Part shown: positions 9,898-29,542 of the stretch, in pieces
Numbering within the stretch: position 1 is the stretch's first letter
Layout: every line of letters starts with the position of its first letter
Source of the DNA: Alicyclobacillus sp. SP_1
GTDB taxonomy: Bacteria; Bacillota; Bacilli; Alicyclobacillales; Alicyclobacillaceae
Assembly (NCBI RefSeq): GCF_024706985.1
Contig: NZ_JAMCCX010000024.1
Location: 1-43,133 of the forward strand
Direction: 5' to 3'
DNA: 43,133 bases
The notes under the pieces: model-generated
The model's database searches: none
What the model was told of the DNA's origin: nothing
The model's input: only the letters and a program-made list of their open reading frames with translations
Made by a program: the position numbers and the translations under genes

Positions 9898-9962
9898 CTT
9901 CCTCCCTTCCGCAGAACCAAGATTCATGCAGTCGTTCGGAAATGACAAAGTCCACGAGGAAA
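9898..9962 (-). promoter_or_regulatory. putative expression platform of the guanine riboswitch
   Basis: On the minus strand the 3' half of aptamer stem P1 (ACGAGG, plus 9968-9973) can instead pair with CCTCGT (plus 9954-9959). The overlapping segment TTTCCTC (plus 9956-9962) can pair with GAGGAAG of the permease ribosome site (plus 9898-9904). Ligand binding, which locks P1, would free this anti-SD segment and hide the ribosome site. I see no T-tracted terminator here, so translational OFF control is the simplest model; it is inference. Confidence 0.45.
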
Positions 9963-9966
9963 TAGG

Positions 9967-10038
9967 ACCTCGTAGTCAAAGCGATTTCCGGTCGCCTGGT
10001 AGAAACTGTCGGTCCATATTTCCGACATTATACGAGGT
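9967..10038 (-). promoter_or_regulatory. purine riboswitch aptamer, guanine class
   Basis: All parts of the purine aptamer are visible on the minus strand: P1 ACCTCGTA/TACGAGGT (8 perfect pairs, plus 10031-10038 and 9967-9974), J1/2 TAAT, P2 GTCGG/CCGAC with an ATATGG loop, the invariant J2/3 GTTTCTACC, P3 GGCGA/TCGCT with loop CCGGAAA, and J3/1 GACTAC. The specificity base corresponding to C74 is C (plus-strand position 9975), which selects guanine or hypoxanthine rather than adenine. It lies between the promoter and the NCS1 permease start. Confidence 0.93.
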
Positions 10039-10049
10039 TTTGCAAACGC

Positions 10050-10078
10050 ATTGTACAAGTCTTTGTGGGTGCGGTCAA
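10050..10078 (-). promoter_or_regulatory. sigma-A promoter of the riboswitch-permease unit
   Basis: On the minus strand TTGACC (plus 10073-10078) and TACAAT (plus 10050-10055) are separated by exactly 17 bp. The start of transcription would fall just before the aptamer at 10038. Confidence 0.75.
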
Positions 10079-22302: not shown

Positions 22303-23934
<1,632 letters not shown>

Positions 23935-23986
23935 TTTTCTTCACCCCTGTGGCCATGAATATGGTTACGAGTGTGGAGCAGAACGT

Positions 23987-24015
23987 GAGGGACCCCGGTA
24001 GGGTCCCTCTTTTTT
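23987..24015 (+). terminator. intrinsic terminator of groESL
   Basis: GAGGGACCC (23987-23995) and GGGTCCCTC (24001-24009) form a perfect 9-bp stem followed by TTTTTT. Confidence 0.95.
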
Positions 24016-24202
24016 CGTGAAAGCCATTTTGTGAGTTCTAAATCTCGCTCTTCCGGCATCTCGAAGGTCTGCTGGGAAGGATTATCAGAGTCGTTGGCGA
24101 AGGTAACTATAAGCTGATTTCGACAACATCAGCGCTCCTGCAGCCAGTCCTACTTTAGAACAGACGGCGAGGCTCGGGAATTTCCGTAAGGAGGTGGGGA
24201 GA

Positions 24203-24385
24203 ATGGTTCAAGGATTGGGCGCATTGCATACTGCAGTGCAAATTGACTTATTGCACCAAAAACTACAAACTGAGCAACAAACCGTTCAGAGACTCAGTGC
24301 ACAGCCGAAAGTTGCTGGTGTCACGCACATTGCGGGGACGACTGGCACCTCTGCTGCCGGTCAAATTGTCGATGCGTACGCGTAA
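24203..24385 (+). CDS. small hypothetical protein, possibly YjfB-like, 60 aa
   Basis: ATG 24203 follows an excellent AAGGAGGTG site (from 24188). The protein has an amphipathic N-terminal helix rich in Gln and Leu (GALHTAVQIDLLHQKLQTEQQTVQRL) and a small-residue tail (AGTTGTSAAGQIVDAYA). This loosely resembles the YjfB 'putative motility protein' family, but I cannot confirm it. It is immediately followed, ten-odd bases after its stop, by a c-di-GMP riboswitch and its terminator, which makes a link with the motile-sessile switch tempting. The upstream stretch (24016-24202) holds a GCTGAT/ATCAGC hairpin (24113-24133) and no clear promoter. Confidence 0.6.
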   Translation: MVQGLGALHTAVQIDLLHQKLQTEQQTVQRLSAQPKVAGVTHIAGTTGTSAAGQIVDAYA

Positions 24386-24402
24386 CGGTGTTTTCATTTG
24401 GA

Positions 24403-24479
24403 AAGTTGGCAAACTCGGCGAAAGCCGGGGACGCAAAGCCATGGGCCTAATGCGTAATGCAATGGTTGCCAGGTTGCAG
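24403..24479 (+). promoter_or_regulatory. cyclic-di-GMP-I riboswitch aptamer (GEMM)
   Basis: The conserved GEMM-I core is present: GGCAAAC (24408-24414), a GAAA-tetraloop stem CGGCGAAAGCCG, the near-invariant GGGACGCAAAGCC (24428-24440), GGGCCTAA (24443-24450), and a 3' part GTTGCCAGGTTGC (24465-24477). Class I aptamers bind c-di-GMP. It overlaps the left arm of the terminator that follows, so ligand binding is expected to favour read-through. Confidence 0.9.
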
Positions 24480-24504
24480 AGTCCTGCGGCCTGGCTTTTC
24501 TTTT
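24468..24504 (+). terminator. riboswitch-controlled intrinsic terminator
   Basis: GCCAGGTTGCAG (24468-24479) pairs with CTGCGGCCTGGC (24484-24495) over 12 bp with two G-T wobbles, a 4-nt loop, then TTTTCTTTT. Its left arm is the 3' strand of the c-di-GMP aptamer. Confidence 0.88.
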
Positions 24505-25087
24505 CGGCATAGTAACGGTGACCGCTTGACGGAATATGTGCGGTAATCATTGCTTGGCAGTCACGACCCGTCACTTCGGACGATTGCGCACGGTGATGAG
24601 GATAGCAAGGACTGCGAGCAAAAACGCGACAAGTAAGACAATAGGCATTCCCAGTGATTCCGCCTCCCCTTCGACACGGTACAGCCACTCATTCCAGCGT
24701 ACACTTTTCCCGGTTCAATTGCACACTGAGGGGAGATCTCAGATTCTGCTGAGACGAAACTACTGTTTCGCATGGTTGGAGGCTTGCAGAAGCTTCAGAA
24801 ATGCACTCGAAGACCAAGGAAACGACAGTTATTAAAGATGGTATGTACGATGAGACAGCTGTTTTATTTTAATTCAGGAAAATTTGGAATATGAAATAGT
24901 CATACATATCCTAATTCTTACTCCTGCCTTGTTGTATAATGGACTCACGCCATCGCATGGGCATTTTACTCTCCGAAAATAGAGGTTCTGCAAGAAGTTT
25001 GTTTGTGGCTCGAAATCTTTGTTTATCGACATTAAGACACTAAATAGAGAACATCCTGAAAAACTCGGGGCGAAGGAGATATGAAGA
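24505..25087 (+). other. non-coding stretch between riboswitch and moxR operon
   Basis: No supportable gene lies here. A perfect TATAAT stands at 24935-24940 without a good -35, and TTGTTT (25019-25024)/TAAATA (25041-25046) with 16-bp spacing is another weak promoter for the operon starting at 25088. If the riboswitch controls anything downstream, the first credible plus-strand gene is this operon about 580 bp away. Confidence 0.5.
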
Positions 25088-26068
25088 GTGGAGATGCGCG
25101 TCAAATCTGTCCCGCTGGACGAGTGGAATTCGGAATTGGAATCCATCCGTTCCAACCTTCGCAATGTGGTCGTGGGGAAAGAAGAAGTTGTTCGTCTGGT
25201 CTTGACGGCCCTTTTGGCAAACGGCCATTGCCTCATTGAAGACGTTCCTGGAGTTGGAAAGACGTTGTTGGTCAAAGCTATAGCCAAGTCGCTCGGTTGC
25301 GAATTTAAGAGAATTCAATTCACTCCGGATTTATTACCCTCAGATGTCACTGGGTTATCCATCTACAATCAGAAAAGCCAAGAGTTTGAATTTCGTCCCG
25401 GTCCGATTTTTGGACAAATAGTGCTGGCGGACGAAATCAACCGAACTTCGCCGAAGACGCAAGCGGCCTTGTTGGAAGCTCTCGAAGAGCAGTCTGTCAC
25501 AGCAGACGGACACACCTACCTTTTGCCCTCACCCTTTTTCGTTCTTGCGACGGAAAACCCGATTGAATTCGAGGGAACGTTTCCTTTGCCAGAGGCACAG
25601 TTGGACCGATTTTTGCTCAAATTCGGGATGGGATACCCGTCCGTAGACGATGAACTCGAAATTCTTCGCCATCACGGGACCAAAACGCCGCTGGAGTCGA
25701 TGACGGCTGTCGCGAGTCCCGCTGACGTCGTCCGATGGCGCAAAGTGACCCGTGAAGTTCACGTGGAAGACGAGATTGCTCGTTATATTGTGCACATCGT
25801 CCAGGCCACCAGAAAGCACGCTAACCTTGTTTTGGGTGCGTCACCGCGGGCCTCACTGGCACTGTACCGAAGTGCCCAAGCATTTGCGTTTACCGCAGGG
25901 CGGAACTACGTAGTTCCGGACGACGTTCGCCACTTGACTCCGTACGTCCTCGTCCATCGCATGATGCTGTCGGCAGAGGCGAGGTTGTCCGGCCATTCAA
26001 TGGAGGGCACGATTGGCGACATTTTGTCGAAGACGCGCATTCCGAGTTTGCACGGAGTTAGTTACTGA
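25088..26068 (+). CDS. MoxR-family AAA+ ATPase
   Basis: A 326-residue AAA+ chaperone-like ATPase. Walker A GVGKT lies in IEDVPGVGKTLLVKAIA, FTPDLLPSDVTG follows, Walker B is IVLADEINRTSPKTQAALLEALEE, sensor 1 FVLATENPIEFEGTFPLPEAQLDRF, and the C-terminal lid carries GASPRAS. MoxR proteins remodel or activate partner proteins, classically with DUF58 and VWA proteins, as encoded next. GTG 25088 lies eight bases after AAGGAGA; ATG 25094 in the same frame is an alternative. Its stop overlaps the DUF58 start by one base (TGATG). Confidence 0.94.
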   Translation: MEMRVKSVPLDEWNSELESIRSNLRNVVVGKEEVVRLVLTALLANGHCLIEDVPGVGKTLLVKAIAKSLGCEFKRIQFTPDLLPSDVTGLSIYNQKSQEFEFRPGPIFGQIVLADEINRTSPKTQAALLEALEEQSVTADGHTYLLPSPFFVLATENPIEFEGTFPLPEAQLDRFLLKFGMGYPSVDDELEILRHHGTKTPLESMTAVASPADVVRWRKVTREVHVEDEIARYIVHIVQATRKHANLVLGASPRASLALYRSAQAFAFTAGRNYVVPDDVRHLTPYVLVHRMMLSAEARLSGHSMEGTIGDILSKTRIPSLHGVSY

Positions 26069-27294
26069 TGACCGCCAGACGACTGTTGTTTTTTGTCCTT
26101 CAAATGGCTCTCCTTGTTGGGCTGTACATCTTCGGTCGCGTCAATGGCGGCTTCTTTTCATGGTTTCTCTTTTATTTCACGCTGTGTTTGAGCGTTTACG
26201 AATGGGGTACGGCCTGGACGGGCTTAAGCGGGTTGGCCGTTGACAAGCAAGTGTCGGCGGAGCGGTTGACAGCCGGTCAGTCGTTGCGCATCATGCTAGA
26301 CTTTGAGCGATCCGGTTGGTGGCCACTGTCTTGGTTGCGTCTGGCGGAAGACGTTCCAGAGCGCATTGGACTGCAGGCGGTTCCGCAGAGTGTCATGCTC
26401 ATTCCCTTATTCTCGAAAAAATTTCAGTATGCCTATCAGTTGGATCGTTTGCCGCGGGGAGTGTTTCATATTGGGTCGACCTCTTTAGAAACGGGAGATT
26501 GGCTGGGTATCGTGCACTCTCACGGCCAACATGAAAGTTCGCATCACATTACCGTCGTGCCAGCTACGGTCGAAGTACGCGGATGGCTGTTGAAATCGAC
26601 GGAAGAGGGCGGTCTTCGGCAGAGTGTGCGCCAGCGTTCCGAGGAGTCCTCGAGCGTGGTCGGTGTGCGGGACTATGTTGAAGGAGATCGCCTCAGTCGG
26701 GTTCATTGGCCAGCCACGGCGCGGCGCGGCATGCTTCAGGCGAAAGAATTTGAGCGCCAAATATCGGCGGACGTAGCGTTTTTAGTCGATGCTTCGGCAA
26801 CTTCGTATGCGCCGTTTACGCCGGAAGAATTTGAACGCTCGATGGTGATGACAGCCAGTCTGATGCGGCACGCCCAGCAACTTCGCCGCCGCTTCACTCT
26901 GATGGTCTACCGGGGGCATGTCCACATGTTGCCGCCAGGTAGTCAGGAGGCGCTCTTTGTGCGCGCGATGGATATCTTGGCCGAGCTCACACCGAGCGAA
27001 TCGATGCCTTTTGCGGACACGGTTGCCAGGCTGGCTGCCGATGCGCCAAGAGGATCGTCGTTGGTGCTGGTCTCACCCCGTTTCGACGCCGCCATGCTGC
27101 AGTCGGTTTGGGCTCTGCGCCGACAGCATCCGATGGAATGGTTTGCACCCGTTGCTCCAGCAGGGCTGACGACTGAATCGCGGGTCGTGGTGCAGCGCCT
27201 TCAGGAGATGGGCGTCCGCGTCCATCTCATCGGGGACGTGGCGCAGCTCGGCACGCTGCGAAAGGAAGGGATGAACGTTGTCCAACGCGCCTAA
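26068..27294 (+). CDS. DUF58 domain membrane-anchored protein
   Basis: A 408-residue protein with two N-terminal membrane segments (LLFFVLQMALLVGLYIFG and FFSWFLFYFTLCLSVY) and a large soluble part carrying the DUF58 core VVGVRDYVEGDRLSRVHWPATARRGMLQAKEFE, followed by a VWA-like region with DASATSYAPF. DUF58 proteins pair with MoxR ATPases and transglutaminases; the biochemical role is unknown. Its last 17 nt overlap the transglutaminase gene. Confidence 0.9.
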   Translation: MTARRLLFFVLQMALLVGLYIFGRVNGGFFSWFLFYFTLCLSVYEWGTAWTGLSGLAVDKQVSAERLTAGQSLRIMLDFERSGWWPLSWLRLAEDVPERIGLQAVPQSVMLIPLFSKKFQYAYQLDRLPRGVFHIGSTSLETGDWLGIVHSHGQHESSHHITVVPATVEVRGWLLKSTEEGGLRQSVRQRSEESSSVVGVRDYVEGDRLSRVHWPATARRGMLQAKEFERQISADVAFLVDASATSYAPFTPEEFERSMVMTASLMRHAQQLRRRFTLMVYRGHVHMLPPGSQEALFVRAMDILAELTPSESMPFADTVARLAADAPRGSSLVLVSPRFDAAMLQSVWALRRQHPMEWFAPVAPAGLTTESRVVVQRLQEMGVRVHLIGDVAQLGTLRKEGMNVVQRA

Positions 27295-29542
27295 TCCGTC
27301 TTCTCTGGCTCTGCGCCTGCTGCTCGGGTTTGCCGCCGCTCTCTGGCTCTACCTGTTCATGCCGCCGATTGGTGCTCTCGGCTTGCTCCACCAGCCGGTC
27401 ACGATGCTCTGGCTGTTGGTCCCATTGGCTGTGGCACAGGCGTTTCCTTGGAAAATTGTTCGGCTGGTGGTCGGAGTGGGAGCGTCTTTTGGTTATATAT
27501 TTCACTATTATCGACTTGCTTTACCGTATCTTCCCTCTAGCAAAGCGCTCGTCCATCGGGAATGGACGGAAATGAGTCTCCTTCTTCGGCAACATCAGTT
27601 GGTCGATCCGCTACAGACTCAGCTGTTTCTCTTCTTTCTCTGCTTCCTTTTTTGGTTGGTGACGTATGCGGTGCACCGTCGCCGCCTCTGGATTTTCTAT
27701 AATGGTATCGGACTTCTCGTGCTCGGCATCATGGATGGCAATACCAAAGTCCACCCGAACGTGGAATTGGTGACCATGGTCTTTTTGGCCATCGCCGTTC
27801 TTGGCGCGACGGAATTCAGTCGGTTGGCCACCACGCCGTTTCAGCGGCGTACGCTGTGGGCCCGGTTCACGTTTCCGCTGGCTCTCCTCCTCTGCCTGTC
27901 TTCAGGGGTTGCCTTCGCACTGCCGAAGCCCGCGGCGAGTTGGCCCGACCCTTTCGACCATCTTGGGACGGGCAGTGGACCCCCGCGGTCTGGTGCAGGA
28001 GATCATTATGTCGGCTATCAGTTGAATGACAGCCATTTGGGCGGTCCGTTTATTGAAGACAATGCCCCGGTCCTCTCCGTTATTGAGAGCCGCCCCACGT
28101 ACATTGGCGGTCAAACGCTAAGCACCTATACTGGGAAAGGGTGGGTTTCTGCAGGTCTGACGGGATCGTCCGTTCAAAATGTTCCTATTGGCAAACCGTT
28201 TCTTGCGACGACGGATGATGCCATTCATCATTTGCCGACTAAACCCTTGAAACAGACCATCACTGTTTTGACCAATCGAGTGGATACGCACATACTGCTC
28301 GGAGCCTATGCGGTCAACGAGGTCGACTCGCTTCCGGATGTTCTCGGCAATAATCTGGTCTACGACGACATCCAAGGCAATCTCATCGGCCCTCAACTCT
28401 CAAAAGGCTCGACTTATGTATTGACGAGTACGCAGCTCGTGGAACCGTATCGATATCTGGCTCAGTCATCGCCTGCTTTAGCTGGTTTGCGGGCGCAATT
28501 GCCACGGATGGTCGTCCGGTACGACTTGCAACTGCCCACCAGTTTGCCGGAGGACGTGCGCCAACTGGCGAAAAAAATCACGGCTCATGCGAAGACCGAA
28601 TACGGGGCAGCCGTGCGGATTGAATCTTATTTGAAGTCACACTATACGTACCATAGTCAAGGCGTTCCAGTCCCTTCGAAGAATCAGGACTACGTCGCGC
28701 AGTTTCTATTTCAATCGAAGCGGGGTTACTGTAACAATTTTTCTTCTTCGATGGCGGTCCTGCTTCGGACTATCGGCGTTCCCACCCGCTGGGCGACAGG
28801 GTTTGCTGCGGGAACGGAAAATACCAATTATGCTGGACCAGGTCAGGAGTATACCATTACTGAAGCGGATGCCCATTCGTGGGTAGAGGTATACTTCCCG
28901 GGTGATGGCTGGGTTCCGTTTGACCCAACGCCCACCTACAGCATGCCTTTTGCGCCAGGCACGGCGAGTGCGAAATCTGCGGCTGCGGCCAAGCCAACCC
29001 CGCCCGTTGCACCGGACAAGACGCCGCCCGTCACGCCCGTGAAGCATCACGTCGTTCAACCGCCGAAAAATGAGGGTAGTGCCGGAGAGGTTGGCACGTC
29101 CTCGGGATTTACCTTAGCTTGGTGGGTGTGGCTAGGTTTGGCGGTGGCAGCCGCCACGGGTGGTGCCATGCTTCTCTACAAGCGCCGCTTGCGGCCCGCA
29201 GCTCGGGTGCGCGAGTGGGAACGGACGCCGCGGCGGGCACGCGGGCGGAAACTGTCAGCGCGCCCACTCCTGTACCTTATCTCCCGGCTGCAAGCCGTTG
29301 GTTGGGTGCCAGATGGGGTTGTGAGTTTGCGTGATTTGGTGCGACCGGCGGAGCGCACACGGGTGTCTTTGTCTTCCGTCCGAAAAATGGTGACCATTTT
29401 GGAAGCCCATTGGTATGGCGGGCGTGAAGTAACTTCGGCGGATAGGAACTTTTTAGTGAACACGTGGTTGGTGTTTTTGGCAGGTATCGGGAAACCTCGT
29501 CGGTCCCGCCGTGAGCGCAAGGAATCCGGCTTGGACCGTTGA
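27278..29542 (+). CDS. membrane transglutaminase-like protein (TgpA type)
   Basis: A 754-residue protein. Its N-terminal 210 residues hold about six membrane segments; residues 230-600 are extracytoplasmic and contain the transglutaminase-like domain with the papain-type triad C485 (RGYCNNFSSS), H533 (DAHSWVEVYF) and D549 (PFDPTPT); then comes a Pro-rich linker, a last membrane helix (about 613-634) and a basic cytoplasmic tail of about 120 residues. The triad is intact, so a protease, amidase or cross-linking activity at the cell surface is likely. TTG 27278 follows AAAGGAAGGG by seven bases. MoxR-DUF58-transglutaminase is a widely conserved operon of poorly known function. Confidence 0.92.
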   Translation: MSNAPNPSSLALRLLLGFAAALWLYLFMPPIGALGLLHQPVTMLWLLVPLAVAQAFPWKIVRLVVGVGASFGYIFHYYRLALPYLPSSKALVHREWTEMSLLLRQHQLVDPLQTQLFLFFLCFLFWLVTYAVHRRRLWIFYNGIGLLVLGIMDGNTKVHPNVELVTMVFLAIAVLGATEFSRLATTPFQRRTLWARFTFPLALLLCLSSGVAFALPKPAASWPDPFDHLGTGSGPPRSGAGDHYVGYQLNDSHLGGPFIEDNAPVLSVIESRPTYIGGQTLSTYTGKGWVSAGLTGSSVQNVPIGKPFLATTDDAIHHLPTKPLKQTITVLTNRVDTHILLGAYAVNEVDSLPDVLGNNLVYDDIQGNLIGPQLSKGSTYVLTSTQLVEPYRYLAQSSPALAGLRAQLPRMVVRYDLQLPTSLPEDVRQLAKKITAHAKTEYGAAVRIESYLKSHYTYHSQGVPVPSKNQDYVAQFLFQSKRGYCNNFSSSMAVLLRTIGVPTRWATGFAAGTENTNYAGPGQEYTITEADAHSWVEVYFPGDGWVPFDPTPTYSMPFAPGTASAKSAAAAKPTPPVAPDKTPPVTPVKHHVVQPPKNEGSAGEVGTSSGFTLAWWVWLGLAVAAATGGAMLLYKRRLRPAARVREWERTPRRARGRKLSARPLLYLISRLQAVGWVPDGVVSLRDLVRPAERTRVSLSSVRKMVTILEAHWYGGREVTSADRNFLVNTWLVFLAGIGKPRRSRRERKESGLDR

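Follow-up and report, generated by a model that had tools for sequence, protein, structure and literature searches.

A c-di-GMP-I riboswitch sharing its 3' strand with a terminator, and possibly lacking a nearby target, between groEL and moxR in the Alicyclobacillus family

What does a c-di-GMP-I riboswitch control when it lies directly behind a small gene and no credible gene follows? The question is raised by a stretch of 43,133 nucleotides (hereafter, the window) that is contig C24 of a 3.4-Mb genome from the Alicyclobacillus family (G000). The 1,153 nt between groEL (ending at 23934) and moxR (starting at 25088) contain, in this order, the groEL terminator, a 60-codon ORF, a c-di-GMP-I aptamer, a terminator that overlaps the aptamer, and 583 nt without a credible gene. 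The usual place of RF01051 elements is the leader of the controlled gene, a placement that is not required for family membership; here, the aptamer is followed by the gene-free stretch instead. The features on which the analysis rests are the following.

22306 to 23934, + strand: groEL, the upstream neighbour (translation; relatives' matches)
23987 to 24009, + strand: terminator-like site 3' of groEL, 9-bp stem and T tail (terminator scan)
24076 to 24102, + strand: possible sigma-H-like promoter of the small gene, RnAGGAwWW-N11-RnnGAAK (pattern match, weak)
24188 to 24194, + strand: Shine-Dalgarno sequence AAGGAGG of the 60-codon ORF, 8 nt 5' of its ATG (sequence)
24203 to 24385, + strand: ORF of 60 aa, ATG at 24203 to TAA ending at 24385 (codon score)
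24398 to 24481, + strand: c-di-GMP-I riboswitch aptamer (RF01051 covariance model, 74.1 bits)
24468 to 24504, + strand: intrinsic terminator, with the left arm 24468-24479 inside the aptamer, loop 24480-24483, right arm 24484-24495 and T tract 24496-24504 (terminator scan, folding)
24505 to 25087, + strand: 583 nt without a credible gene (ORF list, codon scores)
24547 to 24606, + strand: possible relic of a GH13 (alpha-amylase family) gene (DNA match, frameshift-tolerant alignment)
24935 to 24940, + strand: possible -10 box TATAAT of the moxR operon, without a good -35 (by eye; the scan chose another site, 8 of 13)
25088 to 26068, + strand: moxR, encoding a MoxR-type ATPase (Pfam)
26068 to 27294, + strand: DUF58 gene (Pfam)
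27278 to 29542, + strand: gene for a transglutaminase-core protein (Pfam)

The upstream neighbour, which we take to be groEL from its translation and its matches in family genomes, has matches at E <= 1e-100 in 38 of the 41 genomes of the family and is 84-93% identical in the other genomes. Downstream, all three protein types of the MoxR-DUF58-transglutaminase operon named in the first-pass annotation, which was made from the sequence without database searches, are recognized by Pfam.

By covariance score and conserved residues, the element between these genes is a genuine c-di-GMP-I-type aptamer, with c-di-GMP as the predicted ligand. The RF01051 search that had been proposed as a check returned a match over all 87 model positions (1-87) at 74.1 bits, against a gathering score of 35, with E 7.5e-13. 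Residues at 32 of the 36 upper-case consensus positions are identical in the window, and a C-to-A change at model position 84 faces the U at position 10 and would keep that P1 pair. The ligand contacts G20, A47 and C92 of Vc2 would correspond to G24408, the A of GACGC and C24477 in our reading of the alignment. At what we take, in Vc2 numbering, to be the ligand-discriminating position, the window aptamer has a G, which points to c-di-GMP. The aptamer indeed lies behind the small gene, at 12 nt from the stop to 24398 rather than the approximately 20 nt estimated earlier. Apart from the aptamer, a search of 23900-25200 against Rfam at loose thresholds gave just a snoRNA family at E 0.97.

The terminator consists of a 12-bp stem (24468-24495) followed by TTTTCTTTT, and the hairpin alone is predicted at -22.1 kcal/mol. 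As had been noticed from the letters, the 3' strand of the aptamer serves as its left arm: all 12 left-arm bases are within the aptamer, 7 of them (24469-24475) are P3-paired in the structure given by Rfam, and the arm also includes C24477, read above as a ligand contact. Sequence and folding agree that aptamer and terminator share the same bases, so the two folds are mutually exclusive. The folding of 24386-24510 relative to shuffled sequences is modest (z -1.91), with 6 of 200 shuffles equally good. Without ligand, forcing the aptamer to form costs 3.7 kcal/mol relative to the best fold for transcripts that end at 24482 or 24485, 2.0 at 24488, 5.5 at 24491 and 11.2 at 24497, where the terminator is complete. 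In these computations, even transcripts too short to form the terminator do not have the bare aptamer as their best predicted fold. This argues against easy folding, and the ligand would need to act within about ten nt of synthesis.

Two described platforms help to assign a polarity to this arrangement. According to passages of PMC9262584, the pilM riboswitch of Geobacter metallireducens (GEMM-I, sensing cGAMP) is an ON switch that acts by transcription, with mutually exclusive aptamer and terminator, and the Cd1 riboswitch of Clostridioides difficile (c-di-GMP-I, OFF) combines a separate terminator with an antiterminator that is made with the aptamer strand. The window is of the pilM type: in both, the terminator is formed by the aptamer's own strand and a downstream strand, and the folds exclude each other. 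It differs from pilM, which controls the genes behind it and senses cGAMP, in that the G of the window aptamer points to c-di-GMP and no gene follows closely. Cd1 belongs to the same aptamer class, but its layout is absent from the window, where the scan found no second + strand terminator before moxR. Passages of PMC11218506 describe a further class I aptamer, Bc1 of Bacillus thuringiensis, in which an upstream terminator unfolds as c-di-GMP rises; unlike the window, however, Bc1 has genes behind it and, in the same passages, a second terminator that masks the effect. Given the mutually exclusive layout, as in the pilM ON switch, high c-di-GMP should give read-through, and by this analogy we infer an ON polarity, with more read-through at high c-di-GMP.

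The mechanism that we tentatively favour, at a little under an even chance, is that of an intact pilM-type ON switch that lies between two cistrons and has no nearby target. When c-di-GMP is low, the aptamer's 3' strand would pair with 24484-24495, and transcription would stop at the T tract. At high c-di-GMP, the predicted ligand response would keep the 3' strand within the aptamer, block the terminator and let the polymerase continue. The gene for which the switch was built would most likely no longer be adjacent; read-through would now enter the gene-free stretch and, at most, add transcripts to the moxR-DUF58-transglutaminase operon.

The position of the window among related switches bears on this scheme. 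We surveyed 116 c-di-GMP-I switches, 107 from the window's family (all those listed for it together with two of the window's genome, the window's own included) and 9 from another family of the order; these are 116 of 273 matches, the latter being c-di-GMP switch matches summed over genome rows, and they include two pairs with identical aptamers (L185/L189 and L206/L207), both members of which were kept. A terminator-like site within 250 nt follows 41 of the 116, and in 2 of these 41, the window and a second switch of the same genome (L004, G000:C17:12835-12930), the left arm of the terminator begins inside the aptamer. The terminator stem of L004 is 7 bp long. This switch lies 42 nt behind a 485-aa ORF and has no good promoter (the best -10 box scores 4); soon after it comes an ORF whose ribosome site is good and whose product, by eye, resembles a winged-helix regulator. 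Of the other switches, 33 are followed by a terminator within 90 nt; complementarity between its left arm and the aptamer's 3' strand reaches z < -2, an OFF layout, in 13 of them but not in the remaining 20; the shuffles in this test, as in the GH13-alignment and promoter tests described below, keep single-base content only. The aptamers nearest to the window's by sequence are L198 (G006:C9), L225 (G011), L241 and, by DNA, that of G055, which has nearly the same sequence as L225. L198, L225 and L241 show the OFF layout (z -2.4, -2.8 and -3.4, respectively), and the nearest aptamer relatives of the window (G006 C9, G011, G055 and G024) look Cd1-like in their arrangement. There, the left arm of a subsequent terminator is the partner of the aptamer strand, whereas pairing of this kind in the window runs directly into the T tract. 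By inference from this comparison, in which the alignment of the platform part is poor, an OFF switch would become an ON switch if the second arm were lost.

Three OFF-type switches precede a protein of 76-81 aa (L198; L225; and L315, G055:C46, of which just the start is seen). The protein behind L225 matches HTH_16 at 29.6 bits (cut-off 22), and a sigma-4-like ORF, recognized by eye, comes next in L198 and L225, an arrangement that is reminiscent of the RsoA-SigO split sigma factor. Elsewhere, two c-di-GMP-I switches stand in tandem with 95 nt between them (L180, G021:C1:3796259-3796526), and two others are divergent at a distance of 220 nt (L181, G011:C1:2055587-2055988).

Is the gene in front of the switch real, and would it supply the transcript? 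The codon score of the 60-aa ORF is 0.18 bits per codon, equal to the mean of 120 gene slices (also 0.18), whereas the average for 179 ORFs that are out of frame or antisense is -0.16, and 2.8% of these reach the value of the ORF. With gene-like codon usage and a full Shine-Dalgarno sequence, the small gene proposed earlier stands. It has no match in Pfam at E <= 1 or in NCBIfam at E <= 10, and membership in a known family was rejected on these grounds. Among the 41 genomes of the family, its only relative at E <= 0.01 is itself. Searches of the 59 genomes of the order at E <= 1 and of the 398 genomes of the class at E <= 0.05 gave non-significant matches in 15 other genomes (best E 0.030, about 0.029) and in 5 other genomes (E 0.029-0.043), respectively; the three genome sets overlap. 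Against a small set that already contained the weak-match loci, E values were 0.001-0.002. We rejected these matches as noise, as they are partial or lie within long or broken frames. The ORF is probably a true gene, restricted to its lineage.

The best -10-like box in the 105 nt 5' of the aptamer scores 3, a value as low as that in 5 of 115 surveyed switches, the window included, and a sigma-70 scan of the + strand of 23900-25200 found no promoter. Without a convincing promoter of its own, the switch is probably fed by the transcript of the small gene, that is, probably transcribed from that gene's promoter. The candidate for the latter at 24076-24102 follows a sigma-H consensus whose last base we relaxed. 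The pattern has 35 matches in the genome, compared to 5 for the reversed pattern, an excess that the purines of ribosome sites may explain, and the site was picked by eye among several sigma types. On the other side of the gap, the TATAAT suggests that moxR may well have its own promoter. Neither a promoter between the small gene and the aptamer nor a conserved short gene downstream, the combination that had been named as speaking against the first-pass picture, was found with simple consensus scans and a loose comparison of relatives.

The gap behind the switch, estimated earlier at 580 bp without a credible gene, measures 583 nt, and its two longest + strand ORFs (99 and 40 aa) both have a codon score of -0.26 bits per codon, like non-coding sequence. 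The 99-aa ORF (24536-24835), which also lacks a Pfam or NCBIfam match at E <= 1, was accordingly rejected as a gene. The other + strand ORFs listed are of 32-34 aa, and codon scores cover the 99- and 40-aa ones. Comparison of the gap in six frames with all fetched loci gave weak matches, the best (E 0.001) to a minus-strand frame, and at the DNA level, the interval outside the aptamer has no similar sequence in relatives except two short matches of approximately 30 nt. On the opposite strand to that of read-through, a 25-codon ORF (24648-24571, - strand) would encode a hydrophobic peptide with a charged end; a GGGGAGG 14 nt 5' of it is too distant for a good ribosome site, and the ORF has no match at E <= 1 in the fetched loci.

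One part of the gap resembles a known gene. Positions 24551-24603 are 79% identical in DNA (E 8.9e-4) to a GH13 gene (Pfam Alpha-amylase) on contig C8 of the same genome (G000:C8), and a frameshift-tolerant alignment of 24547-24606 with this gene, which was chosen for matching the gap, scores 59. In comparison, 60 single-base shuffles average 28 and reach 40 at most, and 47 other stretches of the window reach 43 at most. The 26-residue reading has no match at E <= 10 in NCBIfam, PDB or Pfam. None of the fetched switch loci has a GH13 gene behind its switch; one distant match, in L190, is upstream and on the other strand. Thus, 24547-24606 is a possible GH13 relic, which would support loss of a gene without proving that a GH13 gene was the target.

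Comparison of the groEL-moxR interval places the whole cassette in context. In the genus neighbour G001, the two genes are 183 nt apart, with neither the small ORF nor the switch. Relatives provide 26 loci in which groEL is accompanied, on one strand and within about 10 kb, by a moxR-like gene, with an identity of just 45-52% for the latter in six loci (L145-L150). No c-di-GMP switch is present in the fetched stretch of 25 of the 26 loci; in the exception, G009, the switch is followed by a SinI-like gene. This is also the sole c-di-GMP-I switch near groEL among 40 fetched groEL regions (of 45 other groEL matches), four of which end early at contig ends. The spacer ranges from 183 nt to about 10 kb across the 26 loci, with differing ORFs inside it in nine listed loci, as if it were an insertion spot in relatives, and the window cassette looks like an insertion between groEL and moxR. 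We rejected orthology with the groEL-switch-sinI locus of G009, as no SinI reading is seen in the window and the genome has its own switch-sinI pair on C13; their common position would be, in our view, a coincidence or a common insertion spot. In five relatives' loci, the spacer is shorter than 700 nt. Four of these (L119, L124, L134 and L140) have -10-like boxes close before moxR, by eye, with which the mechanical scan agreed in L134 (9 of 13) and L140 (8), choosing other sites in L119 and L124.

The first-pass annotation had left three readings side by side: loss of the controlled gene, read-through into the moxR operon, and control of the 3' end of the small gene's message. Loss of the target fits best because the scored ORFs of the gap are non-coding-like, G001 lacks the whole segment, and a possible, if weak, relic of a glycosidase gene is present; a switch without a target should decay, yet the aptamer scores well, and therefore, the loss would be recent or the switch would have a function not seen here. 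Read-through into the operon is possible, though we consider it rather unlikely: at high c-di-GMP, the transcript of the small gene would be extended through moxR, which would amount to long-range ON control of the MoxR-DUF58-transglutaminase operon. In accord with such control, the terminator scan found no other terminator-like site on the + strand of 24505-25088, and the operon is the next set of genes, in the same orientation, with a neighbourhood of groEL and moxR that recurs in the 26 loci. Nonetheless, the 583-nt spacer has no counterpart in relatives beyond the two matches of ~30 nt, the one relative among the 26 with a switch has a SinI-like gene behind it, and four of the five short-spacer relatives show, by eye, the -10-like boxes just 5' of moxR.

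Control of the small gene's message, which comes out as improbable and for which we found no positive evidence, would have c-di-GMP choose between a short, hairpin-ended mRNA and a long read-through mRNA, and thus set the stability of the message or release a 3'-derived small RNA. The 12-nt spacing behind the stop, the lack of a convincing promoter for the switch, and the gene-like codon usage and strong ribosome site of the ORF are all compatible with a 3'-UTR switch, but no relative with the same arrangement was found, and a similar spacing occurs in L006, where a gene-sized ORF follows, although L006 has a perfect promoter of its own. More specifically, the survey includes two other switches at a distance of 15-16 nt behind an ORF of the same strand, L006 (with an ORF of 437 aa 16 nt before it and the next ORF 154 nt on) and L029, and ORFs come soon after both. 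Given these cases and L004, an intercistronic switch describes the window arrangement better than a switch designed for a 3'-UTR does. For 30 of the 116 switches, the survey gives no ORF of 100 aa on the same strand within 500 nt; this is a crude upper bound that also catches real short genes such as sinI. Among the matches listed in open-access PubMed Central, neither a c-di-GMP switch in a 3'-UTR nor one preceding a MoxR-DUF58 operon is described.

An unseen short target, whether a very short gene, the 25-codon ORF as the object of an antisense effect, or a small RNA, is a decidedly improbable alternative. The hydrophobic mini-ORF does lie convergently, and in passages of PMC9943018, c-di-GMP switches are the most prone of all families to predicted antisense action (152 antisense-acting compared to 2,554 sense). 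Like the window, these antisense-acting switches are of class I and are not the leader of the gene acted on; in the same passages, however, the neighbouring gene occupies the opposite strand at no more than 500 nt, and the counts refer to genes of KEGG annotations within that distance, whereas the next credible gene of the window is on the same strand, 583 nt on. In addition, the ribosome site of the mini-ORF is badly spaced, and the fetched loci contain no match to it. Least probable of all is an inert aptamer without a present function: the locus is not conserved, and passages of PMC11218506 indicate that some conserved c-di-GMP aptamers may not regulate, but the window aptamer is full length and scores highly, the terminator is strong, and the two folds share bases.

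If the preferred reading of a lost target holds, this locus would have kept an intact switch after the loss of its gene, and nearest relatives with the opposite polarity would be available for comparison. If the switch is instead alive, it would be an example of a message that carries a c-di-GMP ON switch at its 3' end, or of c-di-GMP signalling that feeds into the MoxR-DUF58-transglutaminase operon.

A purine riboswitch is also present in the window, at 9953-10055 on the - strand (76.5 bits). Furthermore, in six genomes, the window's own included, the survey showed a c-di-GMP-I switch 53-116 nt before a SinI-like motif, at the following places.

G000:C13 (L005, L318)
G009:C77 (L120)
G018:C29 (L236)
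G048:C1 (L316)
G041:C40, two places (L317)
G006:C34 (L321)

The switches belong to RF01051, except for those of L316 and one place of L317, which belong to the sister family RF03167. The switch-adjacent SinI motif is mostly below the Pfam cut-off (25.1-30.6 compared to 31.4 bits) and above it at the second L317 place (34.8), and a second SinI motif often follows soon after the first. Passages of PMC9943018 include an antisense c-di-GMP switch at a SinR-like gene. The pairs found here would link c-di-GMP to the SinI-SinR biofilm switch, in which SinI is the biofilm anti-repressor, and may matter more than the window's switch itself.
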